The position numbers and the translations under genes were made by a program. Under the pieces are notes generated by a model, which made no database searches, was not told the DNA's origin, and saw only the letters and a list, made by a program, of their open reading frames with translations. From the NCBI GenBank assembly GCA_033439255.1, contig CM065878.1:1-64000 (forward strand): 64,000 nt of DNA, given 5' to 3'. The number at the start of each line of letters is the position of its first letter. The first letter of the stretch is position 1. Source of the stretch: Hericium rajendrae. Taxonomy: Eukaryota > Basidiomycota > Agaricomycetes > Russulales > Hericiaceae. This document shows positions 2,356 through 40,275 of the stretch, in pieces.

Positions 2356-2439
2356 CAGTCACTTAGTGCATTGAGGTAATGCCAGGCGAGCTTGACAAAG
2401 TGCCATTGTTGAATGGTCATCCCGCGCCGGCCCGTCGGT

Positions 2440-3870
2440 CACAATGTAGCAGTTACTCAATGACAGGCCTGCTCCCCTTATGTACCAATAAGTCATTGTC
2501 TGGCCTCTGGTCATTTAATCTGTAGTGTCCATTTATCATTGACTGGCCTGGTTCACTATGTACCAATGGGTCATTGTCTGGCCCACTGGATGTGGTGGGA
2601 GGTCATTGGCTGGCCCGTACTCATGAAGTATCTACTATCCATTTCCCATTGACGGGCCTGTAGTATATACCAATGCATCATTGACGGGCCGGTTCTCTTA
2701 CAATACCGCTGTACATTCATCATTCACCGGCCTGTCCTCTGACGTCCATTGGATCATTGACCGGCCCATTCCATCCCGCGGGTTGTCAATTGCTCAGCCC
2801 GTCTTCCAACGTCCATTGGGTCATTGACAGGCCCATCCTCTCATATCACCACTGTTCATTCATCATTCACCGGCCCGTCCTCCAACGTCCATTGGGTCAT
2901 TGACAGGCCCATTCCATCCCGCGGGTTGTCAATTGCTCGGCCCGTCTTCCAACATCCATTGGGTCATTGGCCGGCCGGTCCTCTTACAATACCGCTGTAC
3001 ATTCATCATTGACTGGCCCGTCCTCCAACGTCCATTGGGTCATTGACAGGCCCATCCTCTCATATCACCACTGTTCATTCATCATTCACCGGCCTGTCCT
3101 CTGACGTCCATTGGATCATTGACAGGCCCATTCCATCCCGCGGGTTGTCAATTGCTCGGCCCGTCTTCCAACATCCATTGGGTCATTGGCCGGCCAGTCC
3201 TCTTACAATACCGCTGTACATTCATCATTCACCGGCCCGTCCTCCAACATCCATTGGGTCATTGACCGGCCCATCCTCTCACAATTTCTACTATCAATTC
3301 CCCATTGACGGGCCTGCAGTATATACAAATGGGTCATTGATGGGCCCGTCCTCTTAGAATATACCATTGTACATTCATCATTGACCGGCCCACTCGATCC
3401 CGCGGCATCACAATTGCTCGGCCCGTCCTGTACCGTCCATCGGGTCATTGACGGGCCCGTCCTCTCACAATAACACTGTACATTGGGTCATTGGCCGGCC
3501 CGTCCTTGTACAATGTCTCCTGTACATTCATCATTGATGGGCCCGTCCTCCACCATCCAATGGGTCATTGGCTGGCCTGTCCTCCTACCATTTTTACCAT
3601 TTATTCATCATTGACGGGCCCGTCCTCTACCGTCCATTGGATCATTAACGGGCCGGTTCTCTCACAATGTCTACTGTACATTCATCATTCACCGGCCTGT
3701 CCTCTGACGTTCATTGGGTCATTGACAGGCCCATTCCATCCTGCGGGTTGTCAATTGCTCGGCCCGTCCTCCAATGTCCATTGGATCATTGACCAGCCCA
3801 TCCTCTCATAACACCACTGTTCATTCATCATTCACCGGCCCGTCCTCCAATGTCCATTGGGTCATTGACA
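2440..3870 (+). repeat. Subterminal tandem array, TCATTGACCGGCC word
   Basis: The phrase GGGTCATTGACxGGCCCxTCC(T/C) recurs dozens of times, often paired with ACATTCATCATTCACCGGCC. The longer phrases are about 55-65 bp apart and there is a higher-order repeat near 220 bp: compare 2820-2900 with 3040-3120. Several units carry the ATCCCGCGGGTTGTCAATTG variant. Dense subterminal direct words of this kind are typical of transposase binding regions in DNA transposons. The right arm has the same array inverted at 39430-40200. Short open frames across it are repeat artefacts. Confidence 0.85.
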
Positions 3871-4045
3871 GGCCAGTTCTCTTATAATACCACAGTGCAC
3901 GCTCGTTACTGGGGTGAAGGTGGGTGATACCGTGTTAATATATTCCATGAGATACAATGGAATTGCATGAATTTTGGAACCTAATGAGACAAGTGCGACA
4001 TCATGGAAACATAAATTAGAACGCAGCAGGCTGCTCCTGGTCCGT

Positions 4046-4262
4046 GGGTAAGGCAGGGACAACCCACCTAGCCGCGGGTAAGGCAGGGACAACCCCACCT
4101 GCTGCGGGTAAGGCAGGGACAGCCCACCTGCCGCGGGTAAGGCAGGGACAACCCCACTTGCCGTGGGTAAGGCAGGGACAACCCACTTGCCGTGGGTAAG
4201 GCAGGGACAACCCCACCTGCTGCGGGTAAGGCAGGGACAGCTAAGGCAGGGACAACCCACCT
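4046..4262 (+). repeat. 30-bp tandem array in the left arm
   Basis: About seven units of the form GGTAAGGCAGGGACAACC followed by CACCTGCCGCG. Many units hold a CCGCGG site or its one-base variants (GCTGCGGG, GCCGTGGG). Further units lie at 4490-4560, and an inverted, longer array lies at 38580-39260. The long open frames on both strands here simply read through the 30-bp unit, which is a multiple of three. Confidence 0.85.
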
Positions 4263-4267
4263 CCCGC

Positions 4268-4495
4268 AGGTAATCAGCCGCCGCCGGTGATTGATATATC
4301 CTGTGAGATACAATGGAATCTAATGAGACAAGTGCGACATGATGGAAACATACTGGCTGACTGGAGTGGATCATGAAGCCGTCGGTGAACTTCATCGACT
4401 TGGCATGGGCAGCACAAAGCTTGCCGGAAACAACGACTTCGCAACCCTTGGCACCGGACTCCATAACGAAGCGGAGCACACAGCAGGGACAACCC
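4268..4495 (-). pseudogene. RPS3: Second, shorter copy of the captured uS3 fragment
   Basis: This duplicates 4570-4790. The minus strand again reads [16 protein letters not shown] through [10 protein letters not shown] and the following intron. It differs from the neighbouring copy at a few codons (AAH for AAR, SSQP for SGQP). The upstream exon and first intron are absent because the 30-bp array joins at that point. The intron and the start of the next exon (reverse complement of ATATATCAATCACCGGCGG) also occur without the coding part at about 38700-38730 and 38850-38890 in the right arm. The fragment was therefore captured and then rearranged together with the arms. Confidence 0.8.
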
Positions 4496-4569
4496 CACCT
4501 GCCGCGGGTAAGGCAGGGACAACCCCACCTGCCGTGGGTAAGGCAGGGACAACCAACTTGCCGTGGGTA

Positions 4570-4895
4570 ATCAGCCGCTGCCGGTGATTGATATATCCTG
4601 TGAGATACAATGGAATCTAATGAGACAAGTGCGACATGATGGAAACATACCGGCTGACCGGAGTGGATCATGAAGCCGTCGGTGAACTTCACCGACTTGG
4701 CACGGGCAGCACAAAGCTTGCCGGAAACAACGACTTCGCAACCCTTGGCACCGGACTCCATAACGAAGCGGAGCACACCGTAGCATGCACTGCAAGAGGC
4801 TCAGATGCTGAACACAACACCCAAATCGATTGAAGCATGCACCGACGGATGGCGAGGCCACTAATGATCTTGTATAACATATACCCCCACACGCC
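4570..4895 (-). pseudogene. RPS3: Captured fragment of host ribosomal protein uS3 gene (two exons plus introns)
   Basis: On the minus strand this reads an exon end (SGLAIRR), a 53-nt GT-AG intron, then an exon with [33 protein letters not shown] and [10 protein letters not shown], and then a second intron of about 53 nt. Eukaryotic uS3 (RPS3) has the same order (NGLAIRR, then [19 protein letters not shown], then DGFLIHSGQP), so the identification is firm. It is only a central piece: the KH domain start and the C-terminal end are missing. Retained introns show that it was copied at DNA level, not from mRNA. It sits just inside the left inverted repeat and is bordered by TCATTGAC-type repeats. 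It cannot encode a ribosomal protein. Confidence 0.85.
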
Positions 4896-5345
4896 GGTTC
4901 TCTTATAATACCACGGTTCATTCATCATTGACCGGCCCATCCTCTTATGTCCAATGGATCATTGGCTGGCCCATTCGATCCCACGGGTTTTCAGTTGCTC
5001 GGCTGGTCCCCTACCGTCCATTGGGTCATTAATGGGACCATCCTCTTAACAATTTCTACTGGTCATTGGGTCATTGGCCGGCCGGTCCTCTTACAATACC
5101 ACTGTATATTCATCATTCACCGGTCCATCCTCTGACATCCATTGGGTCATCACCATGCCGCGGGATCAATTGCAGCGTGATGCTGTGGGATCAATCACAG
5201 TGGGGGGTTTCACTGCAGACAAAATTAGTCATTCAAAATATAAACCAGCCGTATGGTATATAACATATACCCGCACATGTGTGCATTGCATAAAACACTA
5301 ACTTTAACAATCACAACTGGTATCGCGCACGTGCCTGAATTGTCA
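4896..5345 (+). repeat. Residual TCATTGAC/GGCC repeats and spacer upstream of the first gene
   Basis: 4890-5160 holds seven or eight more degenerate GGGTCATTGGCCGGCC-type units. They lead into a unique spacer with ATGCCGCGGGATCAATTGC at 5157 and its decayed relative GATGCTGTGGGATCAATCAC, which looks like an old tandem pair. I see no gene before 5401. Confidence 0.6.
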
Positions 5346-5400: not shown

Positions 5401-6126
5401 ATGTCAACGAGTCCCTCACCAGACCCCCTTGAAGAGTTCCGCACCCGCGATATGCAGGAACGAAAACGTCGGGTGGAAAAGTCTCTTGCTGCACTACAGG
5501 CATCGGAAGTCGGTGACACTAACCTGAATGTGAAGCAATGGGTACAGCAATCCATCTTCGCAAAGCCATGTCAATGTGCTAATCACACTATCACCATCGT
5601 TTTAGGTAGTACTTGCCAGAGATTTTGGCTTGATCGTTCATGGCATCCTCTCATTCCTGAATCCACCTCAACCATGACTGCTCGTGCAGCTCGTGCACAC
5701 ACATCCCGCGGCATTGTTAGCCCAGGACTCACCCACGGCATGCCACCATTGACCGATACACTCCCACGGTATAACGCCGCCCTCTTCTCGAGAGTGAGTT
5801 GAAATGTTTCTTGCCAGATCATACACACTAAATTCTCAAATCTACCAAATATCTAGAATGGTTACTATACTGTACCTGGCTCTGCACCTCCTGCAGATCT
5901 TTTCGAGGAAACAAACAAAAGTTTTTTGGAGGCTTTGAACGAGTCAGAAACAGCCCAACAGGAAGCGCGCGGTATGCTGCAGAGGGCGTTGGCTGCCGAG
6001 GATACCAAGGTGAAGCAGTGGAATAGCGAAATAGGGGTGACGATGAAGGGTAATCATAGTACACGTGGTGCCAATGCAGAGGACGTCACCGATGGCAATG
6101 ATACAGATGAACGTACAAATTCATAG
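5401..6126 (+). CDS. Unknown protein, two exons, near left end of the giant element
   Basis: Exon 1 runs 5401-5793 and opens MSTSPSPDPLEEFRTRDMQE. A 63-nt intron (GTGAGT...CTAG, 5794-5856) joins it in frame to exon 2, which ends at the TAG before 6127. The product is about 220 residues. It has a charged, probably helical start (ERKRRVEKSLAALQ), a middle rich in Pro and Ser, a helical stretch (FLEALNESETAQQEARGMLQ) and an acidic, hydrophilic tail. I recognise no domain. An upstream in-frame ATG at 5347 would add 18 residues; I chose 5401 because the extra residues look like leader sequence. The frame is intact, which suggests recent or current function in the element. Confidence 0.55.
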
Positions 6127-6281
6127 ACCTTTTGTTCTTTAGCCTAAAGCGTTATCCAAATCTGGCAGTAGTATTCCACAGTCCGATGATCTGATCAATG
6201 CCCCTTTCGGTATTTTGTCCACACTTCCGCACCCTCTGTCATCTTGTTCTATTTGACCAAGTTCACTGGAAAACAAGCCAA

Positions 6282-6659
6282 ATGCAGAGCCATCCTAGCA
6301 ACGACGGTTCAGACCAGGATATCAATCCATTGACGGACCAAACCCGCGGCTCAGGTGTGTGCAGAATTGTCGAGATCCTGGCATTGCTAATCAGTAGTGT
6401 AGACAGTAGCTGGCCGACCCTAGATGAATATGGATATGATGAGGAGGAGTGGGATGGACCCCCTCCCCTAAATCCAGAAGACACGGACTTTCCCCAAGCA
6501 CCTCCGCATTGCCTCGCACAACAGCTCCTCAACGAGTCTGCTTGGCGCATTCGTGATGCCATCCTATGGCTGAAAGACAAGGTGGATTACCCAGATTATG
6601 ATATTATGAAGGATCAGATCTATGCCGGCATAAAGGCAGAATTGGCAAGTGGTGATTGA
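6282..6659 (+). CDS. Unknown acidic protein fragment or small gene
   Basis: An open frame with MQSHPSNDGSDQDINPLTDQ, then LDEYGYDEEEWDGPPPLNPE and a C-terminal half with AWRIRDAILWLKDKVDYPDY. The segment from 6355 to about 6402 (GTGTGC...TGTAG) could be an in-frame-like intron. Its product resembles no family I know. It may be a 5' or middle exon of the same transcription unit as the helical block at 6980-7301, since both lie on the plus strand 300 bases apart. Confidence 0.4.
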   Translation: MQSHPSNDGSDQDINPLTDQTRGSGVCRIVEILALLISSVDSSWPTLDEYGYDEEEWDGPPPLNPEDTDFPQAPPHCLAQQLLNESAWRIRDAILWLKDKVDYPDYDIMKDQIYAGIKAELASGD

Positions 6660-6979
6660 TCTGATTGGATTCTGATTGATGCTGAACCCGACTAGGATGC
6701 CGCGGGTTTCATCATCGGGTGGGCAGCCTTCCACTGCGAACCCCTCCTAGTCCACGACTATTTAAGGAATGCGTACAACACATTCCACATATGCACCAAG
6801 GCATACGAGGCCCATAAGACCCCTGTTTCTGTGTCTCATATACCCTTTCAAAGGGGTAAGACTACCCTGACCAGAATTTACATGCCATTGTGGTGGATGG
6901 AACGTGGGGGGGAGTGGCTTTCAAAGAAGCAAGTGAATACCCAGGCAACAGCACTGGATAAGGCTTTCTGAAAGGGAGG
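6660..6979 (+). other. Spacer with a CTATTTAAGG box
   Basis: No convincing coding sequence. A TATA-like CTATTTAAGG lies at 6758-6767, followed by a pyrimidine-poor stretch and CCGCGG at 6700. It could be the promoter of the exons at 6980-7301 if those form a separate gene. Confidence 0.3.
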
Positions 6980-7301
6980 GGTTTCGATACCGCCAAACGT
7001 TCTGGACCATCTCATCGTCGCCATCCAGCTGGCTGTGACAGAGGTGAGCCACGACCAATGCTGCTGGACTCTACTTACTTCTGTATTCATACAGATTTGA
7101 CGCAATGACCCCATGGTGCAGAACATCGACAGTGCAATTACCCTGACCAAGAACATGATAACCGGTCTGAAATCAAGGCAGGGTGAAGACGATCAGATGG
7201 CAATGGAGATGGGGGCCCTGCTCAAATGGGCCAACATAAGCAAAGCGTATCATGGTATCGAAAACATGGCGGGCAGCTCTGGGGATATATGTGACAAGTG
7301 A
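6980..7301 (+). pseudogene. Helical C-terminal exons of an unknown gene, one in-frame TGA
   Basis: A first exon reads GVSIPPNVLDHLIVAIQLAV and ends at GAG before a GTGAGC...ATACAG intron (about 7050-7095). The next exon continues in phase as I-stop-RNDPMVQNIDSAITLTKN through LLKWANISKAYHGIENMAGS and ends at TGA in 7301. The stop is TGA directly followed by CGC, as expected if an arginine CGA codon decayed by C-to-T change. The encoded stretch is a likely coiled coil. I assign no function. Confidence 0.4.
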
Positions 7302-7315
7302 ATATGATAGGCAGT

Positions 7316-7381
7316 GGGATACAGTGCCACGGGGCATGGGATACAGTGCCGCGGGACATGGGATACAGTGCCGCGGGACGT
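7316..7381 (+). repeat. Three 22-bp tandem units carrying CCGCGG
   Basis: The unit is GGGATACAGTGCCGCGGGAC plus two bases, repeated three times. The first copy reads CCACGGGG instead of CCGCGGGA. It shows the CCGCGG-bearing phrase amplified locally in non-coding DNA between two genes. Confidence 0.8.
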
Positions 7382-7511
7382 GGTACCATGTGGTAGGATA
7401 TGCTGCTGTGAGATTTAATGCCGCGGAATCACATCAAGGACATAAGTACTGCCTTAGTGACAAATGTATGCATTGATTTGGACCCGACTCGAACTCAATA
7501 ACCTGAATATA

Positions 7512-10500
7512 TTACATGCCAAACTGCGATGGAGGATCGTCGCCTCTAGCAAGAGCAAATGCAGCTTCTGCGGTGGTTGCGAATTCTGCCCACATTGCAC
7601 TCTGACGGGCTGCATATGCCAAGTGACCCAGTTTCCCCTTCCTGTCAGCCCATATCTTCCTAGCATTCCAGGCTGCTCCACGTGTCCTGAACCCGCGGAC
7701 AGTCCACTCCATTTCAAATGGAAGCACTACCATTTGCTCCTCCCAGCGATGCAACCGAGCACGGGTGCGGAGCCATTGGACACAATGGACTGTAAGACAA
7801 GGATGAACAATCGGACATGCAAGAATGATTTTGGCTCACAATCTGCCAGCCATGTAGCCTCAGCGGAGTCCCCTTTCACATCTACACTCCAGAACCATGG
7901 CAGATTTGCATTCCGCAGCCCCTTGCCGCGGGATCCAATACCGCGGTATGGACCTTGAGCTGTGCCCTCTCCAGCAGCTGAAGTCGTTTCAGGACCAACG
8001 ACTTGACTTTCAATGTAACTAATGCCTCTCTTGCCTTCCGATATATGCGGGCCTGCTGTTGTACTGTGTTTTCAATGGACATGACATCTGCCCAGGCTCG
8101 GGTTTTGCCGCGTTGACTGCCAGCATTGCGGACGTCATGTCTGAAAACAAACACCTTATGTCCCAATGCTAGACGAAGGCTCTGCAAAGCATCATTTGCT
8201 TGGCCCTCCCTCAACTCGGCCTCCTTGGCAACAAGCGAGCGCATCTCCGGCAACGCGCGCAACTCGTCGTCCAGGCAGGATGGGATTGACAGGGCGACCC
8301 TCTCCACTGGGACATACACATTTGTGCCGTCTGCTGCAGCATTCCCTGGAGCATGTTGCTGTTCCGGCTGCTCGATATCCTCGCCATCTTCACCTACAAG
8401 GTCGAAGTCTTCCCCTTCATTTTCAGACAATGGGATGCCACCACCTGTGACATCTGTATCCTGTGGGAGATAGTCGCCTGCCGCCCTCTCAAATGTCGAA
8501 ACCCTGGCCTGGAGACGACGTCTGCGGTCTGCTAGATCATTTTTCTGCTCCGCGGTAAGGTTTTTTCCCAACTTGCACAGATGTGCTAGGATAGATAGCC
8601 TGCCAGTTCCATTAAAAGAATGAAATGCTGAATGAATAAGGCATTCTTTGGCAAGACTTACTGAGTTTCCTGAATGCGAAGTCCTAGAGTAATCCATGCC
8701 ACGGCACCTTGCCCCTTTTCCTTCTTTCGCTCTCGCTCATTCAATTTGGATAGGATCTCTGCTCTTGAAGGGGCTGTGTATCCCGCGGAAATCAACCCCT
8801 TGCCGTGGGAACACGTCGTACCAAGTTATGCGCACCTGTTTTGATTACTGTGTCATATATCGGGACCATGACTTCAGGCTTATCGCTGCGCTTATCCTGC
8901 GCACGCTGCTCTGCTTTGAGCCACGTGTCCCTATTCTCAGCCCCGACTGTTGCGTCGATATTTTCGAACCCAAGACGTGCCTCCGCAATGCCTGCCTTGC
9001 CCTCTTTATACTTGCAGGTAAGGTACGATACTGTGCACCATGATCAGGATCAATGATTATTGCTCGGGAGTGAATGAACCCACCCATCCCTGTCATCTTT
9101 TTCCAATTTGAGTCATTCATATGGTCGTCCAGGACCTCTCGGCGATGAGAAGTCGTCATACCAGACGTACTGCGAGAAATCTCGTTCAGTGGTGCCCAGA
9201 GTGTTTCGACGACTTCCCCATCAAACTGTCTGGCTCCAATGATGTAGTTTGGTGAGAACGACGGGATGCAAGTATCCTTGTGTCCGTGGACATGGAACAG
9301 CCCAATCGCCTTCTTCATTTCCTTCAAACTCATTGGAAGGTTGAGATATGGACTTCTCTCTACTCGCTCATTGAAATGCTTCCACCATTGACAAATGACG
9401 TCATAGTATTTCAAGATGATTTCTATCCCTTCAGTATTGTGGTTGATGGCCTGCACATGGAGTAGTCCATGTTCATTTGTCTGGTTGAGGGGGGTGCATG
9501 AGCCATGCTGCGGGATAGCGATATGGAACCTGCGGGATGCACCTTTCGCCTTTTTGAAAGTCAACAACAGAATGGGGATAGTAAGCACCATGGCCACAGG
9601 CGGTAGCACCGATTCCGGTGTTTTCAATGTTGTGACGATCCGAGTTGACACAGTTTACAGCGCGGTGCTCATTGCAGGTGGAGCGCTAAAACATGGTCAA
9701 GCAACCTTGACCCGCGGCAATGCTGAACCACCCTACCTTGGTGACCTCCAAAGCAACTTTAAGATGTTCCTGATACTCTTTCCTTCCCACCATGAATCCG
9801 GTGCCATCACTGAGCTGGACATCATTCTCTGGCTTTCGCATCTTCACCCCAGTCAAGTCAAAATTGCCATCCATGACAAATGTTCTTAAGAAAATCCACC
9901 TGACGAGGTATGAATCTGAGAGGAATATTCTTGAGGTGACATGCAGCTTACTTCCGTGGATCTAATTCCTTCCAATTGTCCGGCAAGTTGAACCCTGGCT
10001 GAGGGCATGCTGCACAAAACAGCGCAAATGCACCCGCGGCATCTGGCTTGTCCAAGTCCGTATGGCCAGCCCCAAACCATTTTCTCAACTTCATATCACG
10101 CCATTCTCTTTCTACTCTGAGAAGCTCTCTGTACCGATTCTGGAGGAATATCTGATCAAAGAAATTTCCCTCTGATTACAAGAAAGTATGTATCTCACCG
10201 GTACACTGGCCGGAAATGCACTGCTCGTGAGCCGACGCAGTTTCGCATAGAAATGCCAGGCTGTGGTCTTGCATTCTAAATTATCCAGTCGGAAGTCATC
10301 CAAAACATGAAACGTGAATGCAGATTGTGGTGCATTGAAGGAGGCTGGGAAGAAGCCCATCCGAAACAGCTGCTTTGCTGGTGCCTCTGCATCTGGACAC
10401 TGACACCATACGACTGGCAGCTGATGGACTCCGTTCGAATCGATCAAGCAGAGAATGGGATTGCCTTCATTATCCATGTCCTGCTTGCAGACTGAATCTG

Positions 10501-11247
10501 TCTGGAAGTGCAGTGTGTTGTCTTCGTTACTCTGGTTCGTCTGATCATCCTCCGCATCATCGTCCTCATCCTCAACCCGGACTCCATCTCCCTTCCAGCT
10601 TCCCACGGCATGTGGACATGCTTCTCCACCGTGACCAAGGTGGACCCGAACACCAGCTAGACGCAGCCATGAAGGTGCAAAAAATTCGCCAGTCCACTTT
10701 TCAACGCAATGGAGTGGAAGTGCCAGATGGCGCCGTGCGTAGCATGCTGTGCATTCAAAGGGTCAGCCCACACAATCTCCACATTTCCACAGACCTGGGC
10801 GTTCCTTGCATGAGATGCACTTGCCATCCACAGGCCGACATTCATGCTCCAACAGGATATGGAGATAATCCTGATGCTCATCAAGCCATTCCCGTAGGAA
10901 GTCATGCTGGCCCTATTGTAAAGCCAGTCATGCCGCCGCACTACGTGACTCGATGCCAATTCAATACTTACCTTCCTTAATGTATTTGCAAGGGGTACAC
11001 GATCGGGATCCACATCCGGTATGGTGTCCTCTTTCGGGCCCTCTCCAGATTGCTGACTGGATGCGCCACACAGTGGTGTGCTCCTGGCCCGGCGGGCCGG
11101 GTTGCTGGGATTCACATTACGGATTGGAATCGCAACTTGGCGATATCCGCGGGACATCTCCTTGAGCACTAGTGCCACTCGAGCCGGTTGACTTGGATTG
11201 CCAAATTCCTTGCGACGAACCCTGGTAGTACTCTTTCTGGTTACCAT
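7512..11247 (-). CDS. KDZ-family transposase with CxC2 cysteine cluster, damaged, of the giant element
   Basis: A multi-exon gene. It starts MVTRKSTTRVRRKEFGNPSQ, followed by an Arg-rich NPARRARS stretch usual at KDZ N termini. The CxC2 zinc-binding region has CISC, CGDC, CTAC and HCVEKW, then VHLGHGGEACP, VVWCQCPDA and the conserved FTFHVLDDFRLDNLECKTTA. The catalytic core shows the acidic residues expected of KDZ enzymes: FVMDGNFDLTG, then GIGATAC and VVDFQKGER, YYDVICQWW, and GEVVETLWAPLNEISRST. The C-terminal coiled region ends with EEQMVVLPFEMEWTVRGF and AYAARQSAMW. Two lesions are visible: an in-frame TGA at 10763-10765 inside CxC2, and a one-base frame change near 9450 just before YDVICQW. 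It is therefore probably not functional as it stands. The start is 93 bases from the end of the TET/JBP gene on the same strand. Confidence 0.9.
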
Positions 11248-11339
11248 GAGATTGGGTGAAGATGACTGTAGAATACAAGAACACGGCAAACCTGCTCGAC
11301 GAGAACATGTGTAAATTTGATCGATGGTATTCGTAACTC

Positions 11340-12676
11340 TTATCGATGGCAATTATCACCATCTTCATCAGCTAGACCATCTCTATCCTGCAGCAATAAA
11401 TCCGAATACTCCCACAGGTTCATCCAGCCTGGAGAAATAACCTTTGCCCATTCGTGAACATTGTCTCTCAAAAACCACGCATAGCAGATACGCTCTCCGC
11501 GGAATGGGCCCACAGCATGGTTCAGGGACTTCCCTGCCACGGCTATGACTGTGCGCCTGGGGTAGTTCAGGGTCCAATTCAAACCAGGAAGGTTGAATCG
11601 GGCCCCGGAGTAGTCTCCAATGGTACACAAGATGTCGTAGCCTCCAGTCAGGCCTTGGCTATCTCTGTGTGATGGGGTGATGCGATTTGATATGATGGAG
11701 ACTCCGTTGAATACCGAACTCCATCGATGTGCAACTGAAGCCAAGTGTTCATCTTCCCTCTGTACGCCAATCACGGAAGCCGCGGCACGGTAAAGGTCTG
11801 GGTTGACCACTGCTAGAATTGCACTGATAAGAGCCGCGGATTCCGCAATATCTCGGAGCCATTTGAATGGTTTCGCTGTCATTTTGTTGCGACGTTTTGG
11901 GTTCAAATTTGCTGACACCGTCCAATCATCACCTGGCATCTGTACATACGTCAGAACGTAGCCTACGTATACGCATATATCCACTGCACATACATCATGA
12001 CCCTGTGCAAACCATCCTGGAGAGAGGGTGACCGTGCCAGGTGAGAAGCGATGGGTTGCCGCAGGATCAATGAAGAGCCCAGCATACTCACGCCATGTTG
12101 CCTGGCTGGCGCTGGTAGCAACTTTGAAGTGTTCATTGAGGTGCTCTGTAGCCTCTAGCATCTTCCTCTGCATGTGGAAATCATAAAAATATTGCATATC
12201 GCAACTGAAACTAGGCATACTTCACGCTCCTCTGACAACAAGTCAGGCAAGTACCACAAGAAGGCCTGTTCCCCGATATCGACCCCGACGCAAGGATTGG
12301 TCTGCACTGGGCGGTCAGATAGAGGCGGATAGCGCTTCAAGAATGCAGGGGTGTTCTCAGTCCTCCTCCGCTCTGCGTAGCAAGCCATGTCCCAATGTAC
12401 TTGTACTGCCAAGCACGTCAATCAGATGCCGCGGTACGATGCCGTAAACATACCTCTGGTTTCCGCGGCATCTGCCAGTTTGTGGGCAATGAAGTCCAAC
12501 TCGATCAGAACATGGAGAGGTAGTATTGCAGGCCTTCGTACATCGCTAATGCTCGATCCCGCGGCTCCCCTCTGTGCCAGAACATTTGCAAAGCGGGCAG
12601 AAAGATAGTCTGCCATTTCAACCTCGTATGGGCATGCAACCGCTCTGGAATAAGGGATGGGCAGGAGAGGTGACAT
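11340..12676 (-). CDS. TET/JBP-family 2-oxoglutarate/Fe(II) dioxygenase, intact
   Basis: Four exons (12676-12454, 12405-12221, 12167-11994, 11939-11340) with GT-AG introns of 48, 53 and 54 nt give an unbroken protein of about 393 residues. The C-terminal half has the double-stranded beta-helix signature of fungal TET/JBP enzymes. WLRDIAESAALISAILAVVN precedes VFNGVSIISNR, then the iron-binding SHRDSQG (His285, Asp287), YDILCTIGDYSGARFNLPGL, the distal iron-binding His335 in SLNHAVG, and Arg344 in GERIC, which in this family contacts 2-oxoglutarate. Family members oxidise 5-methylcytosine or thymine methyl groups in DNA. In Agaricomycetes these genes are known to be expanded and linked to KDZ transposons, as here. 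No lesion is visible. Extra 5' exons up to about 13003 are possible but unproven. It may share a transcript with, or drive, the transposase 93 bases downstream. Confidence 0.88.
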
Positions 12677-13795: not shown

Positions 13796-13801
13796 TAGAA
13801 T

Positions 13802-13810
13802 TTGCTTAAG
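13802..13810 (+). repeat. Target-site duplication (left) of the nested KDZ element
   Basis: TTGCTTAAG directly precedes the element and is repeated exactly at 29222-29230. The 8-9 bp length fits KDZ (Zisupton-like) insertion. Confidence 0.7.
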
Positions 13811-14420: not shown

Positions 14421-14510
14421 CGCTATTTGTCGCTGCATATGAGCATCAGACCTACAGCTGGACCATCATCAGCAACATACGAAGTTCTGAAAAAGCTAAA
14501 CTCACCTAGT

Positions 14511-26760: not shown

Positions 26761-26764
26761 TTTC

Positions 26765-28005: not shown

Positions 28006-28021
28006 ATACCCACAAGGGAGC

Positions 28022-29253: not shown

Positions 29254-32200
29254 ATGAGATGGAGGGATATGCTGCATTGGCACAGGAATGGTCAGAAAGT
29301 GGGCCACCAGTTGAGGTCCAGCGGAAGTGAGTGCTTTCCGCAATGATCTTGTCTTGCAATGCTGATTTTTACCCAGAAATGTGGACAACCGGGCAGTGAA
29401 ATACATCAAGGATTTCTCAAAGGAGATGTTCCGGCATTGCGGGATGACCCTCATTGTGATGTCCGCCCATGTGAATAGCAAGGGCATGTTGTGCCAAGCA
29501 GAGTAAGTTCGTATTTGTTGGAATGTGTCATTTTACTAACTATTTGCAGACATGACTACACGAATAACTTGATCCCAGACAAGAAAGGTTTTACGGACAC
29601 CAACCCGAAATGGATAACGGAACCCAACGTGGCTGATGCATTCAGAAAGTGGGCAGAGTTCGCTTTGAGTGAGTGCATTATCTCCATCCCGCGGCATTCT
29701 CTCATGGCTCCCCCTCATGTTGTTTTGATGAATTCTAGATCCAGAAGTTCAAGGCTACGATGACATCGATGAAGAGGACGTGAGCATCATGGAGATCAAG
29801 TACAATGTAGACAGCAGCTGGCCTGTCCTTTTGCCGATGGACGAGTGGAAGGTGTTGGACCGCACGACGCAACAGAAGTTCATCGGGGTTGGCTCACAGC
29901 ACACTACCGTAAGTCCCGTGGCATCATATACCATGCTCTGCAGATATTGACATTTGAGAAGACATCTCTAAAGGTGTGAACCAGGGACCTGTCCCCTGGG
30001 GTGATGTTTGGAAGTCTGAAACCGGGTACGTTAAGGCTGAATACCTTCCAGATGGCTGGGACACTTGGCACCATCCCTCAAAATGGACTGTCAAAATGAT
30101 GAACAAAATCTACCAGCACTGGATAGAGAGGGACGATGACAACAAGATGCCATTCCGCTGGTCTTTTTGGGCTGACACTGTACGTGGCAAGGCGGTGCCC
30201 AAACGTGCCCTTGATCCGGTCCCTGGGCAAGGGCCATGCACTGTGCTGCCCCGCAAGAATCGGCCAGCTCGTCCCGCGGCATCGGCTCCCGCGGCGTCAC
30301 ATCCCACGGCATCAGCACCCGCGGCATCAGCGTCCAGCACCGCAAAGAAGCCACGGAAATCTCGGCAATGTTCTCCATCCGAGAAATCAGCTTGCTCGAC
30401 CCCGGAGCGATCTGAGAGCTCTGCGTCTGACGATTGGAAACCTCAATCCAGTGGCAACTCAGACGAAGATGAGGAACAGGAACAGGAGCAGGATCCGGAA
30501 GAGGAACTGGAAGGCAAGGAGGAAGAGGAAGATTTTCAGAAGATGATGGATCTGGCTGACATCTTTGGTGACGAATCACAAGAACCTGTGCCCATGGAAG
30601 AGGACGATGAGGAAGAACATGTTCCAGGCCCAGAGGAAAGCTCGCCAGCTCCAGACGGGGGCAATGGCAGGCAAGGCAAGGTCAGACTTGGAAGAGGACT
30701 CCGACACTGGGTTCGAGGACTTACTTCAGTATGTACAAGAGGGAACCAATGGAGGTGGAAGCGATGAGGATGAGGATCCTGTGGTGACCAGTCGGCCCAG
30801 GGCTACCAACAAGGGGAATAGTCCAGGGCAAGCTGCGCCTGGGACCACCCCCACACCCTCCCGCCCATTAGCCGTCGGTGCGAAGTCGAGTGGAAGGCCT
30901 GACCACGGTCGAGCAGCCAGTGCGGTTCACTCCGACAGTGCAGCAGGTGCGCAACCCACCCGCGGGATCCCCCCCGCTCTGCAAGAACGGTCGCGTACCC
31001 CCACACCCCCACCAGCCCCCCTGTCCGCAATTCATGGATCATACTTTGAAGATGACATATCAATGGGTGAAGAGGAGGCTGGCAGCGAACAAGATGTCGA
31101 GCGTCTTATGGCACCAAACAGAAGTGCTGGTCACCCAACTACCGGTGACAGCCCAGCGGCGACTGGTACCTCCGATGCAAATAGGATGGATTATCTTCGT
31201 TCCTTGAGCATGATTAAAGAGTACCACGACCTTCTGGATGCCATCAACAGCTCTAAGGTATGTGGTCATTAATTGTCATTACACGATCTGAACTTGGATG
31301 ATATTGTAGAATTCCTACCCCCCGCGGGCAATGCATCTGCCTGAAGGGTGGGACACAAAGTGGGGTGGATGGTCTTTCCAGAAGGAGTGGCTTCCAAAAT
31401 CCCTGCATACCAAAGAAAGCGTCCGACATGTGGTAGAGTGGATCGATGGTGAGCCTTGGTACATTCCACTTTCTGAGAAGAGCAAAGGCAAGTCAACGAA
31501 GCCACGGGATCTATACTCAAAGAGGGCACTGTTAGTGTTGGCACTCCTTCTGGGCATGCTGATGCATGATGTGGAAGCGAAGACATATCATGACGAAAAT
31601 GCGCCAAGCCAAAGCATGTGCATCAGTCAGGCTGGTTTGAAGAACAGTATGAACACGTGTTGGTTGCCACGATTAAACGAATGTCATCTGTGTTGGCTCA
31701 TTCTGGCAAAAAGGTTCATATTCTATTCCAATTGGGCCACGGGTTTCTGATCTGGAAACTATCTCTAGGTGGCCGGCAAGTCGTCGGAGACCAGCAAGAA
31801 GCATCAAGACGATGACCAGGAGGCTGAAGAGGAGCCTGCACCAAAGGTCCGTCTTCTGCCAGGATCCCGCGGTATCGATGACTCACCTGGAACTATTTGT
31901 TTAGAAACAGGGTGGTGCAAAGTCATCTCGGACTGAGACGCGGCGTGGACAGAGAGATGGGGCACAGCCACCTGCCAAGAAGGTATGTCTCTGGCTAAGA
32001 CCTGGCCACATTGGTCACTTATCACGGTGCTATGTGTGTAAGGGGCCCAGTAAGCAGTCTGCGATGAGGAAGACTGGAGATATTGCCGAAGCTGAACAGG
32101 AACCTGCACCAAAGGTGTGACTCCTGCTAAGATGCAGCCACATGAGTAACTAACCACTGAGCCATGTCTCACTAACAGGCCACCGTCAAGTCGTCGCAGA

Positions 32201-32836
32201 TGCTCATGAGACGTCAAGAGCAGGATGCCGCAGAAGAGCCGCGTGCCAAGAAGGTACCACTTCTCATACGATCCCACGGCATGGGTCACTGACTGCAGAG
32301 TTGTGTCCAGAGGGGGAATGGCTTGACGCAGTCGTCTGACACTGGCAAGAAGCGTCGCCGTGGAGATGAAGTGGAAGGGCAGCCAGCCCCCAAACGTAAC
32401 AAGAATCACATGCAGGCAGACATTACCTCTGCCAACATCCTTGAGGTGCCCTGTCAACCAAAGCCCAGCCAACGGGTCCTTGAGTTTGTTGTCATCCCTT
32501 GCTATGTTTATTTGGTACTAACAGCAAGGCAGGGCGATGGCGCAGGATGCTTTGAAGGCAAAACGGGGTAAGGCCAAGGCAGCTGGTCCTGTTCGGAAGA
32601 GTGTGGCAGGACCTAGTGGCATGAATCCCGTGGGAATGATCGATGTTCCTGCTGCTGGATCAAGCCGCGGGATTAGTACGGAAGAGCTCGAACGATCTGC
32701 AAGAAGGAAGGGGTGCCCTCTGGAGGTGGTTATTGAGATCCCAGCACTGCGAAAGAAACCCGCTGCACGAACGACCGGTGATAAAGCATCAGGCACCAGT
32801 GGGAAGGAAGGTGCTAGCAGCCACAGAAGGCGTTAG
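29254..32836 (+). CDS. Gene A, remaining exons: conserved domain, acidic region and micro-exon ladder
   Basis: The first exon reads MEGYAALAQEWSESGPPVEV and, after an intron, VKYIKDFSKEMFRHCGMTLI, VMSAHVNSKG and DHDYTNNLIPDKKGFTD. GPP-EVQ plus CGM is typical of an unknown Agaricomycete family. Later exons give PVLLPMDEWKVLDRTTQQKF and YLPDGWDTWHHPSKWTVKMM. Then comes a Pro/Ala run built on CCGCGG repeats, an acidic run (EDEEQEQEQDPEEELEGKEE), and a second LPEGWDTKWGGWSFQKEW block at 31320-31400. From 31769 five phase-0 exons of 72-78 nt each end in PAPK or AKK. The last exon ends SSHRRR. Frames around 31560-31640 do not join simply, so an intron or a lesion is there. The N-terminal exons lie at 13243-13795, across the nested element. 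The phase at the junction is off by one base by my reading. Possibly a chromatin-associated protein; function unknown. Confidence 0.6.
31769..32400 (+). repeat. Tandem exon-intron modules in gene A (136-138 bp)
   Basis: Exons 31769-31846, 31905-31982, 32043-32114, 32179-32253 and one from 32299 all start in phase 0. They are 24-26 codons long and close with EEPAPK, QPPAKK, QEPAPK, EEPRAKK and GQPAPK. Exon starts are 136, 138, 136 and 120 bases apart, so exon plus intron was amplified as one unit. The introns carry CCGCGG or decayed CCCACGGCAT words. Confidence 0.75.
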
Positions 32837-33157: not shown

Positions 33158-36100
33158 TTATGCATGCCTGGCACCTGCAGAGTCCTCATTGGCGCTTTCC
33201 TGCAAGTCCCGGGGGGAGTGGGAACCCGCGGCACCAGCGGCACCATTGGACTCCTGGGAGGCCGGACTCTGACCACCACCCGCGGCACCACTGCCAGACG
33301 GACAGGGCGTCAATGACTGACGGGAAGCCCACCCGAAGCCGAGGGTCAATGCCTTGTTCGGAGCTGGAGAGGCTGCTATAGTTGGGAGCTGACCGCCATC
33401 TGATGTGGACTGAGGGAGCCTCTCCGCATGAGTAGCAGTCAGTCTAGCGAGTTCAGCTCGCATTTCACCTCCTGCAGCCCGTTCCGCGGCTACCTCCTCC
33501 CTCATGCGACCCAAGTCATTCTGCAGCATCTCGCGGTAAGACTCCAGCAGGTCCTGCTTGAGCTGGCTTTGGCCATCCTGCATTGTCTTCTGGAAGTGGT
33601 TTCCCACTTCCTCGAGAACCGCGGGGTCGATCGTCTTTGACTTCCCCTCTACGTCCGCCATCCGGTGCTCCATGCGCTTCATGTCGTTGAAGTGGGCCGT
33701 GTTGATGCAGTCCATGCGGGCATCGATGTCCTTGAATCTCGTGGCCATCGCGGTCTTGTGGTCGTCAATGTCATACGTCAGCTTCGCAAACTTTGGCTCC
33801 ATCCCGCGGAGCTGCTCGATAACACCGCCTTGGGTGCGAACCTCCATGATGAGGTGCTCCATTCGGGAGACAAGGCCATCATACTCTGTGCAAGATACCA
33901 CGGGTTGGGATCCTGCGGGAGCCAAGGACGTCGATGCCGTGGGATCTTGCGAAGCAGCGGATGCCACGCCAGCCGGCATGTGGTTGGGAGGCGGCGGCAG
34001 GTGCTCGAACCCAGGAGGAAGGGGTGGAAGAGGGCCTTGACCATGACAAATGAGGACATCCCAGAGCTCGGGTGTGGTGTAGTTGACCACCCCCACTTGT
34101 GACACCATAGGGTCGGAGGGAGCACTTCTTCTTGCCGGCGGTGCACAGGAGGCAGGCAGACCCCACTCCTGGGTAGGAGCACAGTTCCTTTTTGCCGTGC
34201 GCAATACAGTTCCCACAAGGACTCAGCTGGCAACACTGGTCAGTGTCGTGGAATGGAAACAGCGAAGGGATGTACCTTCACTGCTTTGGCAGCCAGTCAG
34301 AACTGGAGTTCAGCCTCGTTCAGCTGGCTGTCGCTGTACCGCTTTGTCTTGTCCTTGACCTCATTCTGCTACTCCTAATATCAGCCTCGCAAGACTTTTA
34401 GAGTATGACTTTCCACTACCTTCTGAGCAGTATCCGCGGGAGGGGCCTGTGATATGCCGCGGGATAAGGGCTGAGTGTGTGCAAACAACGGTCAGCAATG
34501 ATCATTGCTCACCTTACTCCGAAGCACCTTCTGCACTGTCTCTTGTGGTGATGCACGCTGCTTCCCTTTGTCCTTCTGTTCATGACAGGATCAGTCCTGG
34601 TCAACAATGCAACAATGCCACTCACATTTACGATGGGGATCTCCGCCTCTGTTTCAACAGGCTTTGCTGCCTGCTTACCTTTCTGCTTCTGTAAATGGTG
34701 GACCAAGTCAATTTGTGTCATCCTGATATTTGAAATACTAAGTACCTTGGTGGGAGGAGCATCACCCTGATTGTCAGGCGATGCTACCCGCTTTGTGTTC
34801 TTGCCCTTCTAGATTCCACGGCATTGGTGTCTACACCTCAAGGCATCGAGAGGTACTTACCTTGCTTGATGGTAATTCGGGCTCTGCTGCCTGGCTAGTA
34901 GGGCCCTTTACCCTTTGACGCTGCACAGCAGATGTTATGGTCAGCAGTGCAATCATCTTTGAAGGTGGGGCATCACCTTGGCCAAAGGCTCATCGTCGTC
35001 ATCATCGTCGTCATCCTCGGTGGCGGCGGCATCCTTGTCCTCCTCGTCCTGGTGCTCCTCTTCATTCCGGACCTTGTCTTCATGCTCGTTCTCCTCGCCC
35101 TCAGCCATATCTTCGTCTATTGTGGCAGGCGGCTTGCTTCTGCGTGTCTGGAACCCGCGGGATCAGTGCACGGCACAAAATAGTTGTGGCTGCAGCTTAC
35201 TTTCTTAGCCGGCATGGGCTCCTCATCCTCCTCCTCGTCCTCAGTGGGAACGAGGGCCGGCATCTTGTACACCCTCTTCTTCGGCCGAGAGGTCCCCTGG
35301 CCACTAGGTCCAGCATTCACCTCATCCTTCTTGGTCGACTGGGTGGGCTTGCTGCAGGCACGCTTCCGGCCCTGCTCCATCATCGTGTTGGTCTCCTCGT
35401 CCGAGTTCGCATGCTTGTGGCTCTGCCGGGTGTCGAGTTCCACGAAATCCAGCTTCTTCTGCGTTTTGGGCTGACGGCACGGTGGGGCGGGATCCAGTGC
35501 TGTGCGTGGTGCGGGGGTGGTGCGTGCAGGGCATCCCCGGCGTGCGGTGGGTGCCGCGGTTTCCGCGGGTGCCGCAGGTGCCGCAGGTGCTGCAGGTGTC
35601 GCGGGTGCTGCGGGTGCCGCGGGTGCCACGGGTGCTGCGGGTGCCACGGGTGCCGCGGGTGTCGTCCGGGCTGGAGGTATCCCGCGTGTCATGCGCCCAG
35701 CGGGTGCCGAGGGTGACACGGTTTCCGTGGGTGCCGCAGGTGCTGCAGGTGTCGCGGGTGCTGCGGGTGCTGTGGGTGCCGAGGATGCCGCGGGTGCCGC
35801 GGGTGCATTTGTGCTCTCAGGAGGAGGCCTCGCTGTTGCTGGAGGCGGGGTTGCTGTGGAGGCTTGGGCACCGGTGGGGACCACAGGCCTGTCTACCACA
35901 GGGCCAGGTGGATGGTGGGGCGCTGCTTGTGGAGCAGAAGGGATATCAGAAAATGTTAAAAACAAAAGAAATATGCTGGAATGAAAAATACCTAAGTGTG
36001 CCCACCAGATACCTGAGCCATCCGGCTGCCCCGCGGGACCCGCCGCCTCTTCCATCGTGGCCCAAATACGAACCCAAGCCTTGCATGGCTCAATACGCGG

Positions 36101-37777: not shown

Positions 37778-38320
37778 TCAATGTGCTGTAGGATCCTGAT
37801 CTGTGATGGACAATATTCAAGCATCATAGGAAATGGTGGTAGTAGACACTGTTTGATCCAAACGCTGTGCATGATCGCAGTCCAGAGCCAATTGTGAAAA
37901 TGATGAATGAGTCCTTAGCAGTGTACCAGACTGGGGCATGACCCTTGGCTTATGGGTCGACTCATAAGAGTAGAGGCAATCATGAAGGTCAGAAACAGCC
38001 CTTGTTCGAGATACCCCGGGATTGGTAGATAAGAACACGAGCGAGGTTGCTGCATGCAGGGGGGGAATCGTGCATTTGCCGCTGCCCCTGCACATGCACG
38101 GAAACGGGCGGCCTGAGGAAAGGGACGGAATTGTGATGCTGCAGCACATCACGAAAACATCCTAAAGCAAATGGTGGCTCGTTTGTCCCAAGACCTGCAA
38201 GCACTGTGGCCTTGTCCCTGCCGGTCACGGACGAGTCGGCAAGCATGGAGGGGGTTCGGGTCTTGGTGGTGGTCTGCAGCACCACAGAATCAACTTCGAT
38301 AAATACCATCCTGGTGTGAT
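37778..38320. other. Spacer before the right arm
   Basis: No coding sequence supported. A CACATGCACGG/GCATGCAGGG-rich patch lies at 38050-38105. Confidence 0.4.
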
Positions 38321-38332
38321 GTGTGCTACAAC

Positions 38333-38590
38333 ACGGGTTCAGCAAGGTACTCGGTAACGGCCAGCTGCCCAATCTTCCTGGAACCCACCCAGACATCACC
38401 CTTCCCCTACCCGCAGCAATTGGGTTGTCCCCCCAACCCTATGGCCCACGGAACCTATGGCCCGCGGAATGGGGTGGCTCTGGAGGCAAAGAAGCCCACC
38501 ATGCATGATATGACATTATCTAAATTTTCGATGTGCTGCAGCACACATTCAGCAAGGTGCTCGGTAACGGCCAGCTCCCCAACCTACACC
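38333..38590 (+). pseudogene. Possible fragments of a ribosomal protein uL15 gene, twice
   Basis: [14 protein letters not shown] is encoded at about 38336-38380, and the same stretch, truncated, lies at about 38546-38585 (TCAGCAAGGTGCTCGGTAAC). Eukaryotic uL15 (yeast RPL28) has YFKVLGKGRLPNIP-like text. The match is only about 14 residues, so the assignment is tentative. The two copies lie in a direct repeat 210 bases apart next to the 30-bp array, in the same setting as the uS3 pieces of the left side. Confidence 0.4.
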
Positions 38591-39260
38591 CACCCCTTAC
38601 CCACGGCAGGTGGGGTTGTCCTTGCCTTACCGGCGGACCAGGAGCAGCCTGCTGCACTCTGATTTATGTCTCCATCATGTCGCACTTGTCTCATTAGGTT
38701 CCATTGTATCTCACAGGATATATCAATCACCGGCGGCGGCTGAGGAGCCTACGTACCAGGCGGCTGACCCCGCATTTGAGCAGCCAGCTGCCTACCAGGA
38801 GCAGCCTGCTGCGTTCTAATTTATGTTTCCATCATGTCGCACTTGTCTCATTAGATTCCATTGTATCTCACAGGATATATCAATCACCGGCGGCGGCTGA
38901 TTACCTGTGGGAGGTGGGTTGTCCCTGCCTTATCCGCGGGAGGTGGGCTGTCCCTGCCTTACCCGCGGCAGGTGGGGTTGTCCCTGCCTTACCCGCAGCA
39001 GGTGGGGTTGTCCTTGCCTTGGCAGGTGGGCGGCAAGTGGGTTGTCCCTGCCTTAGCTGTCCCTGCCTTACCCGCAGCAGGTGGGGTTGTCCCTGCCTTA
39101 CCCACGGCAAGTGGGTTGTCCCTGCCTTACCCGCGGCAGGTGGGGTTGTCCCTGCCTTACCCGCGGCAGGTGGGGTTGTCCTTGCCTTGGCAGGTGGGCG
39201 GCAAGTGGGTTGTCCCTGCCTTATCCGGGGCAGGTGGGTTGTCCCTGCCTTACCCACGGA
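38580..39260 (-). repeat. 30-bp tandem array in the right arm
   Basis: About fourteen units of TGTCCCTGCCTTACCCGCGG followed by CAGGTGGGT. A block of about 180 bases inside it (38960-39040 against 39125-39215) is duplicated, including the CTTGGCAGGTGGGCGGCAAG variant. It is the reverse complement of the left array, with more copies. Confidence 0.85.
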
Positions 39261-40275
39261 CCAGGAGCAGCCTGCTGCGTTCTAATTTATGTTTCCATGA
39301 TGTCGCACTTGTCTCATTAGGTTCCAAAATTCATGCAATTCCATTGTATCTCATGGAATATATTAACACGGTATCACCCACCTTCACCCCAGTAACGAGC
39401 ATGCACTGTGGTATCATAAGAGAACTGGCCTGTCAATGACCCAATGGACATTGGAGGACGGGCCGGTGAATGATGAATGAACAGTGGTGTTATGAGAGGA
39501 TGGGCTGGTCAATGATCCAATGGACGTTGGAGGACGGGCCGGTGAATGATGAATGTACAGCGGTATTGTAAGAGGACCGGCCGGCCAATGACCCAATGGA
39601 TGTTGGAGGACGGGCCGAGCAATTGACAACCTGCGGGATGGAATGGGACGGTCAATGATCCAATGGACGTCAGAGGACAGGCCGGTGAATGATGAATGTA
39701 CAGCGGTGTTGTAAGAGGACCGGCCAGCCAATGATCCAATGGACGTTGGAGGACGGGCCAGTCAATGATGAATGTACAGTGGTATTATAGAAGGACCGGC
39801 CGGCCAATGACCCAATGGATGTTGGAGGACGGGCCGAGCAATTGACAACCCGCAGGATGGAATGGGCCGGTCAATGATCCAATGGACGTCAGAGGACAGG
39901 CCGGTGAATGATGAATGTACAGTGGTATTGTAAGAGAACCGGCCCGTCAATGATGCATTGGTATATACTACAGGCCCATCAATGGGAAATGGATAGTAGA
40001 TACTTCATGAGTACGGGCCAGCCAATGACCTCCCACCACATCCAGTGGGCCAGACAATGACCCATTGGTACATAGTGAACCAGGCCAGTCAATGATAAAT
40101 AGACACTACAGATTAAATGACCAGAGGCCAGACAATGACTTATTGGTACATAAGGGGAGCAGGCCTGTCATTGAGTAACTGCTACATTGTGACCGACGGG
40201 CCGGTGCGGGATGGCCAATCAACAATGGCACTTTGTCAGGTTCGCCTGGCATTACCTCAATGCACTAAGTGACTG
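38820..40275 (-). repeat. Right terminal inverted repeat arm of the giant element
   Basis: Reverse complement of 2356-4350. The outermost CACTAAGTGACTG ends at 40275. It contains the inverted TCATTGAC/GGCC array (39430-40200), read here as GGGCCGGTGAATGATGAATG and similar, and the shared segment with CACCCACCTTCACCCCAGTA at about 39377-39396. An open frame crossing the outer end at 40211-40558 is accidental. Confidence 0.8.

Follow-up and report, generated by a model that had tools for sequence, protein, structure and literature searches.

The segment between positions 2356 and 40275 of the window analyzed here (the whole 64-kb stretch of DNA) spans about 37.9 kb and is best read as one unit, an unusually large KDZ-type transposon that carries cargo and is now in decay; we put the probability of this reading at roughly 0.6. 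It is bounded by exactly matching inverted ends, encloses two KDZ transposase genes and a TET/JBP dioxygenase gene, and carries further gene models in sequence unrelated to its flanks.

Matched ends and inverted arms

As the first-pass annotation of this DNA had claimed, the termini are exact inverted copies: the sequence CAGTCACTTAGTG is identical at 2356 (plus strand) and 40275 (minus strand). The perfect inverted match extends to 34 nt. A search with the first 21 nt of the terminus, allowing up to six mismatches, found no copy beyond these two on either strand of the 64-kb window. Behind each end lies an arm:

2356-5150 (plus strand), about 2.8 kb: left arm, with the terminus CAGTCACTTAGTG, a subterminal 34/42-nt array, a GGCAGGGACAACCC array, and ribosomal protein S3 (RPS3) pieces
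38595-40275 (minus strand), about 1.7 kb: right arm, an inverted copy of the left arm with shorter arrays and the terminus at 40275

The arms are inverted and share arrays, as had been proposed, but are of unequal length rather than both 1.5-2 kb. Positions 2356-2909 and 39722-40275 are 95% complementary. In an alignment of the arms, counting ungapped blocks 40 nt or longer, identity was 98.0% over the outer 407 nt, 93.9% over 343 nt, 99.3% over 294 nt, 97.2% over 145 nt, and 92.1% over 126 nt. Pooled, these five blocks hold 45 differences in 1315 sites, 34 of them transitions. The count leaves out one 52-nt block (84.6%) and the four innermost blocks (40-137 nt, 32%-43%), in which the aligner had matched unrelated DNA. 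The 34-nt exact ends, the 98% identity of the outer 407 nt, and the presence of exactly two ends in the window all speak for one unit. In the left arm, the 34/42-nt motif array occupies 2493-3862 and 4925-5071, and the second array has a unit of about 30 nt, GGCAGGGACAACCC. Array copy number differs between the arms, and the repeat containing RPS3 was seen in the left arm only, with no RPS3 exon seen in the right.

The strongest evidence that the arms are the two ends of one unit is a 13-nt motif, TCATTNNNNGGCC, that is oriented and confined to them. The left arm has 33 copies, every one on the plus strand, and the right arm has 15, every one on the minus strand, so that all 48 share one orientation with respect to their own end; the rest of the 64 kb holds none. 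The motif was picked post hoc, from inspection of the arms, and in 100 single-base shuffles it appeared 0.43 times on average and three times at most.

Boundaries and target site

Similarity stops at the ends, in line with the divergence immediately outside that had been described: of 313 self-alignment rows (E ≤ 1e-5), not one connects the segment with its flanks, and the interior (5151-38594) has no blastn match to either flank (word size 7, E ≤ 1e-3). The flanks are rich in repeats; on the right, Pfam scans of 51500-56496 (minus strand) and 40276-45272 (plus strand) gave no match.

The lack of a clear target-site duplication (TSD), acknowledged from the start, is confirmed: no repeat of 3-9 bp adjoins 2356 and 40275 (..AGTATGTT on the left, TTTCATGT.. 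on the right), where 7-8 bp would be expected for the KDZ superfamily and 4-8 bp in Cryptococcus. TT abuts the segment on either side, which would fit a 2-bp TSD and could easily be chance. An 8-mer, GTTGCCGG, is common to both outer flanks, 8 and 9 bp off the ends; a single-base simulation that covered the outer 20 nt gave P = 0.0016. We dropped it as a TSD, since it was found post hoc and the score of the 150-nt flank alignment is commonly reached in shuffles (equaled in 84 of 300, and in 24 of 300 for the inverted comparison).

Transposase and TET/JBP genes

Pfam domains bear out the KDZ transposase and TET/JBP genes read from the sequence earlier:

7512-10912 (minus strand): KDZ-1 transposase gene with CxC2 zinc cluster (KDZ 4.1e-24, CxC2 8.9e-27)
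11343-12676 (minus strand): TET/JBP dioxygenase gene (PF12851, E = 8.9e-23; 7vpn, E = 1.8e-22)
21965-25552 (plus strand): KDZ-2 transposase gene with CxC2 (KDZ 1.8e-25, CxC2 1.5e-27)

The two transposase genes lie in opposite orientation and are 28% identical. Both combine the transposase domain with the N-terminal cysteine cluster that characterizes the KDZ superfamily, and with breaks read as X they cover PF18758 almost end to end (4-217 of 217 for KDZ-1, 3-217 of 217 for KDZ-2). The DGNF, YYD, and DGE motifs, which we take to be the sites of the catalytic residues, are identical between them. The KDZ-1 frame appears to be interrupted by an in-frame TGA (10763-10765) and by a probable frame change near 9.45 kb, and that of KDZ-2 by an in-frame TGA at 22585-22587. 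Because both frames look interrupted, this copy seems inactive now. In the TET/JBP product, the HxD and the later H line up with CcTet.

Cargo

Besides the KDZ and TET/JBP genes and the RPS3 and GMC oxidoreductase pieces, the segment holds about eleven orphan gene models. The predicted passenger features are:

4663-4788 (minus strand): RPS3 piece (PF00189, E = 2.7e-21, in two stretches), adjoining intron-like sequence
5401-6971 (plus strand): two small orphan models, 220 and 204 aa, without Pfam match
13243-13795 (plus strand): orphan model, 166 aa, without Pfam match
14511-15740 (minus strand): orphan model, 391 aa, without Pfam match
16101-18163 (minus strand): orphan models, 486 and 119 aa predicted, without significant Pfam match
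19258-21812 (plus strand): orphan model, 752 aa, without Pfam match
25863-28418 (plus strand): orphan model containing the GMC oxidoreductase piece
29259-32292 (plus strand): orphan model, 749 aa, without Pfam match
33158-34108 (minus strand): orphan single-exon model, 316 aa
34953-36452 (minus strand): orphan model, 461 aa, with a low-complexity middle

The RPS3 match, which has a second copy at about 4366-4491, substantiates the captured ribosomal gene pieces noted earlier. The GMC piece is a 39-aa C-terminal fragment (28228-28344; PF05199, E = 1.6e-5, scoring 26 bits where the cut-off is 24.6). Gene families labeled A, C, and D, for which no definition was given, were not recovered: among 19 predicted proteins, the only similar pair is KDZ-1 and KDZ-2. 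The product of 13243-13795 was compared with the PDB, and its best match (E = 0.029) was judged not meaningful. Rfam gave no match with 4227 families at the gathering score.

Searches for internal units

We searched for internal units having their own terminal inverted repeats (TIRs) and a TSD of 6-9 bp, with ten single-base shuffles of each region as control. Around KDZ-2 the counts were 3, 1, 1, and 0 against control means of 4.3, 1.1, 1.2, and 0.2, and at tighter limits 1, 0, 0, and 0 against 0.8, 0.5, 0.2, and 0.0. Thus, of the whole second KDZ element that had been proposed, the transposase gene is present, but no TIR plus TSD above the shuffles surrounds it. Near the outer termini, candidates were far more numerous (75, 38, 20, and 5 against 3.1, 1.2, 0.3, and 0.0); those listed, six from each longer list and the complete set of five from the final one, fall within the arms, whose repeats and short palindromes generate them. 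Around KDZ-1 and TET, where the counts were 0, 2, 0, and 0 against 2.3, 0.5, 0.4, and 0.1, one 7-bp candidate (4126/12935) was dropped because it begins within the left arm array. The other is:

6715-16894 (no strand assigned), 10.2 kb: candidate nested unit enclosing KDZ-1 and TET, with TTCATCA flanks and a 17/20 terminal match

Alternative explanations

Were this candidate real, KDZ-1 and TET would form an ordinary KDZ transposon inserted into the larger arm-bounded unit, a passenger element rather than the outer unit's own genes, and the outer ends would be served by KDZ-2 or by neither gene. Such nesting is compatible with a 38-kb unit and alters which genes are its own. The TTCATCA direct repeat of 7 bp (direct match 11 nt) fits Kyakuja, the length falls within the KDZ range of 9.2-11 kb, and when the interior was simulated 300 times with an order-2 Markov model, such a pair appeared once with a 7-bp repeat, twice with 6 bp, and never with 8 bp. 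However, the right end lies inside an open frame (17275-16286, minus strand) that runs for 127 codons outside and 203 inside the candidate, with its sole stop at the end; 203 stop-free codons would occur by chance with a probability of about 4e-4, and this placement makes the unit doubtful. In addition, the left end falls within a predicted intron of another gene model, the ends are not CA..TG, and the terminal match is partly due to a local palindrome. We consider the nested unit unlikely.

Set against a single unit are the missing adjoining TSD, the apparently broken KDZ genes, the size, the possible nesting, and the one copy examined. One alternative is a pair of asymmetric, Kyakuja-like KDZ elements that lack TIRs and encode a transposase each, inserted close together in opposite orientation with the same end outward, in which case the arms would not be the TIRs of one unit. 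The oppositely oriented KDZ genes between the arms and the lack of a TSD common to both ends agree with this, and two TET-bearing Kyakuja families without TIRs are described in the accessible text of PMC12730594. Yet no direct copy of the 7-mer that precedes 2356 exists within the segment, none of the three internal copies of the 7-mer right of 40275 is followed by the expected CA, and the 28% identity of KDZ-1 and KDZ-2 is far below the 92%-99% of the homologous arm blocks; the arrangement is quite unlikely. Two complete back-to-back TIR elements were rejected, as inner copies of the terminus are absent. Under accretion, the segment would never have moved as a whole; in a repeat-rich locus, unrelated transposon-linked genes would have become enclosed through inverted duplication of a terminal array or through the arrival of two end fragments. 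This agrees with the missing TSD and draws on the repeat-rich flanks and on the tandem arrays of the arms, since such arrays are prone to duplication and conversion. It seems improbable, given that both arms start at exactly the same base, that 48 of 48 motifs are consistently oriented with none elsewhere, and that the interior lacks similarity to the flanks. Long inverted arrays are also hard to assemble, and arms that had been collapsed or joined chimerically would leave no TSD either; but the 45 differences in 1315 aligned sites, together with indels, mean that the arms are two distinct sequences, and an assembly artifact is very improbable. The giant cargo element originally suggested retains its matched ends, mirrored arrays, KDZ and TET genes, captured pieces, and unrelated interior, but lacks an adjoining 3-9 bp TSD and has apparently interrupted KDZ frames.

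Comparison with known elements

TET/JBP-encoding KDZ transposons of Agaricomycetes (Kyakuja, Zisupton) were reportedly described by Iyer et al. in 2014. The segment resembles them in having a KDZ gene with a cysteine cluster next to a TET/JBP gene that is close to CcTet, and in its outermost bases, CA..TG. According to the accessible text of Kojima 2025 (PMC12730594), TET genes within complete KDZ transposons are established, and the two TET-bearing Kyakuja families described from Laccaria bicolor lack TIRs and are flanked by TSDs of 7 bp. The ends of our segment are unlike those, for it has the CA..TG bases but also TIR arms of about 1.7-2.8 kb and no TSD, besides two KDZ genes and much cargo. 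The active KDZ1-KDZ3 of Cryptococcus neoformans, as given in the accessible part of PMC12810828, are about 9.2-11 kb long, with TIRs of 139-241 bp, TSDs of 4-8 bp, and CxC1 as the cluster domain. They share with the segment a KDZ transposase and TIRs, the latter also a feature of Zisupton, but the segment, at 37.9 kb, is 3.4-4.1 times as long, its best cluster match is CxC2, and no repeat adjoins 2356 and 40275. It would be an unusually large, long-armed KDZ variant with two transposases.

CACTA/En-Spm-like (CMCT) elements carry oriented subterminal arrays. They also share the CA..TG ends, and the flanking TT would suit a 2-bp TSD, although a CMCT-type TSD of 3-5 bp was not found at the segment ends, and six-frame Pfam scans of the interior (coverage with gaps) gave no match to an EnSpm or Plavaka transposase. 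Starships resemble the segment in spanning tens of kilobases with numerous passenger genes, and eight of these giant transposons are reported from the basidiomycete Tremella fuciformis in the accessible part of PMC13066641; they have a tyrosine-recombinase captain, for which the same gapped scans of the interior gave no match. In a viral contig collection we found no relatives, the pattern matches (5, 1, and 32 stretches) failing in tblastn. A 17-nt motif matched four stretches in genomic contigs, all in bacterial records, and these were taken as chance.

Proposed mechanism and implications

Given the ends, arms, oriented motifs, protein domains, and frame interruptions observed, the single decaying transposon would have worked as follows. 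A KDZ transposase would bind the many oriented TCATTNNNNGGCC sites in both arms, pair the two ends, and cut at CAGTC/GACTG, and the TET/JBP enzyme may oxidize methylcytosine in the element and so ease silencing. The remaining genes would be passengers, some of them possibly captured as genomic DNA, as the RPS3 exon with its intron-like edges and the GMC oxidoreductase piece suggest, and the whole would move as one 37.9-kb unit. Tentatively, and with the odds still against it, the segment may stand for an Agaricomycete class of giant cargo mobilizers that is Starship-like but uses another recombinase, combining a DDE-type KDZ transposase, kilobase-scale array TIRs, a TET eraser, and two transposase lineages per unit.

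The 48 oriented subterminal sites offer a specific candidate for the sequence that a KDZ transposase recognizes, which we have not seen described in the portions of the literature covered. If the segment does move as one piece, mushroom DDE transposons would be able to carry about a dozen genes together, their mobility would be coupled to an epigenetic eraser, and Agaricomycetes would have a vehicle for the transfer of gene blocks comparable to Starships.

Ends and subterminal arrays

The segment at 2356-40275 (~37.9 kb) is bounded by CAGTCACTTAGTG, an inverted terminus at 2356 (+) and 40275 (-) that matches perfectly over 34 nt, and inward of it the arms are 98.0% identical over 407 nt and then align in blocks of 93.9%, 99.3%, 97.2%, and 92.1% identity, which agrees with the exact inverted termini described in the first-pass annotation. 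The features considered here are as follows:

2356-5150 (+): left arm
38595-40275 (-): right arm
~4366-4491 and 4663-4788, left arm: ribosomal protein S3 (RPS3) pieces
7512-10912 (-): KDZ-1, transposase gene
11343-12676 (-): TET, TET/JBP dioxygenase gene
21965-25552 (+): KDZ-2, transposase gene

In five aligned blocks the arms differ at 45 of 1315 sites (34 transitions and 11 transversions), a count that leaves out a 52-nt block (84.6%) and four innermost blocks of unrelated DNA (32%-43%). The arms reach inward to ~5150 and ~38595, and array length is the main difference between them. Copies of TCATTNNNNGGCC, a motif chosen post hoc once the arms had been inspected, number 33 in the left arm (all +), 15 in the right arm (all -), and none elsewhere in the 64 kb; 100 single-base shuffles gave a mean of 0.43 and a maximum of 3. 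Spacing is mostly 34 and 42-43 nt, frequently alternating. These oriented arrays are the strongest evidence that the arms are two ends of one unit. Oriented subterminal arrays have a parallel in En/Spm, and they may be bound by the transposase or an accessory protein.

Gene content and state of the transposases

The interior was scanned against Pfam in all six frames, with stops read as X; the scans covered all but the arms (2356-5199, 38702-40275), 12902-12999, and 19482-19699 on the + strand and 2356-3857 and 37902-40275 on the - strand, where only three open frames were scanned from 7903 to 10649. Matches were to TET/JBP (E 8.9e-23), KDZ-1 and KDZ-2 (each with a CxC2 zinc cluster), a left-arm pair of C-terminal RPS3 fragments (E 2.7e-21), and the end of a GMC oxidoreductase (39 residues, E 1.6e-5). 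Matches to apolipoprotein, Phasin_2, collagen, CCDC71L, VP4_2, DUF6781, and CoV_NSP13_ZBD, as well as ING, DUF6574, zf-B_box, and CEBP_ZZ in the KDZ profile comparison, were discarded as weak or low-complexity. A simple, purpose-written splice-aware predictor gave 19 models (14 scoring at least 8.9, five at most 5.3), whose scores are not independent evidence because it was trained on long open frames from the same region. Among the 14, one fuses TET and KDZ-1, one contains KDZ-2, and one (34937-35984, +) is antisense to a better-scoring model, leaving eleven orphan gene models. A 9-nt tandem array at 35549-35806, within a cargo gene model, encodes an Ala/Pro-rich stretch.

An alignment of the TET domain to CcTet of Coprinopsis cinerea (7vpn; E 1.8e-22) includes the HxD and the later H; this fits an Agaricomycete origin. 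Splice-like signals border the RPS3 piece (CAG preceding the exon, GTATGT following), which suggests capture as genomic DNA rather than as a processed transcript; the adjacent intron-like part is repeated in both arms.

With just 28% identity between them, KDZ-1 and KDZ-2 represent two lineages rather than a recent duplication. When their exons are joined and breaks are replaced by X, they cover positions 4-217 and 3-217 of the 217-position KDZ profile. Both genes contain an in-frame TGA, which falls in the zinc-cluster region of KDZ-1 and at 22585-22587 in KDZ-2; near 9.45 kb the reading frame of KDZ-1 also appears to change. Candidate GT-AG introns of 42-100 nt could skip these TGAs (three for KDZ-1, seven for KDZ-2), but each one listed deletes residues identical in both proteins or shifts the frame. 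Given these lesions, this copy is probably not autonomous, barring unusual splicing or sequence error.

Borders and flanks

Divergence immediately outside the ends is confirmed: 0 of 313 self-alignment rows in the window link inside to outside, and blastn of the interior against each flank returned nothing at E<=1e-3. Directly past the right border (40276-41000) G+C drops to 0.32, against 0.54 within the right arm, whereas the left border shows no comparable step (0.52 inside, 0.56 outside). The lack of a clear target-site duplication, conceded at first pass, also holds, as no 3-9 bp repeat adjoins the two ends; TT is present on either side, and GTTGCCGG, 8 bp beyond the left end and 9 bp beyond the right, was not counted. 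In a single copy this absence can result from recombination or loss, and it removes the customary proof of insertion.

Long direct repeats in the right flank (44626-48016 and 60202-64000), at 92% across 1.9 kb and 87% across 1.5 kb, lead into a 158-nt tandem array, the window ending within the second copy. A ~70% identical repeat common to both flanks (195-345, 47399-47540, 63386-63527) is consistent with their being parts of one repeat-rich region. At 53852-54442 (-), a 196-aa open frame without a Pfam match resembles, by eye, the C-terminal part of a KDZ-type protein.

Best and alternative readings

KDZ-1 and TET might instead form a nested element of 10,180 bp at 6715-16894. It is framed by a 7-bp repeat (TTCATCA) with a terminal match of 17/20 bases, exceeds the shuffle background, is the sole interior pair with a 7-bp repeat at 14/20 or better, and agrees in size and repeat length with known KDZ elements; in 300 simulations, pairs of at least 17/20 arose once with 7 bp, twice with 6 bp, and never with 8 bp. 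Yet its right end cuts a 329-codon open frame midway, a predicted intron contains its left end, CA..TG termini are absent, and the match is owed partly to a local palindrome; we consider it unlikely, though it slightly lowers our confidence in both the single-unit and the two-element readings. The whole second KDZ element initially proposed as cargo is supported only as a second transposase gene, as no pair of terminal inverted repeats plus target duplication around KDZ-2 exceeds the shuffle background.

The arms could also belong to two asymmetric KDZ elements lacking terminal inverted repeats, in opposite orientation with the same end outward. Such repeats are absent from two Laccaria Kyakuja families (7-bp duplications, CA..TG ends; PMC12730594); we regard the two-element arrangement as improbable.

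The anatomy of 2356-40275 is genuine, and the giant KDZ cargo element first proposed is best read, at a probability of roughly 0.6, as a single oversized KDZ-type transposon-like unit with cargo, probably now defective, although that it is mobile as one unit we only infer.

Relation to known elements

TET/JBP genes sit within Agaricomycete Kyakuja and Zisupton elements (Kojima 2025, PMC12730594), active Cryptococcus KDZ elements measure 9.2-11 kb with terminal inverted repeats of 139-241 bp and duplications of 4-8 bp (PMC12810828), and KDZ families have been counted in Agaricus bisporus (PMC7473861); KDZ and Zisupton are absent from a review of giant eukaryotic transposons (PMC6431247). In literature searches that reached few subscription papers and not the Kojima supplementary table, none of the papers listed was recognized as describing a KDZ element near 38 kb, which is weak evidence of novelty. 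We claim neither Kyakuja nor Zisupton membership because the target-duplication test failed. Eight Starships are reported in the basidiomycete Tremella fuciformis (PMC13066641), which offers a precedent for giant cargo elements in basidiomycetes. Our verdict is that 2356-40275 works like a KDZ transposon.
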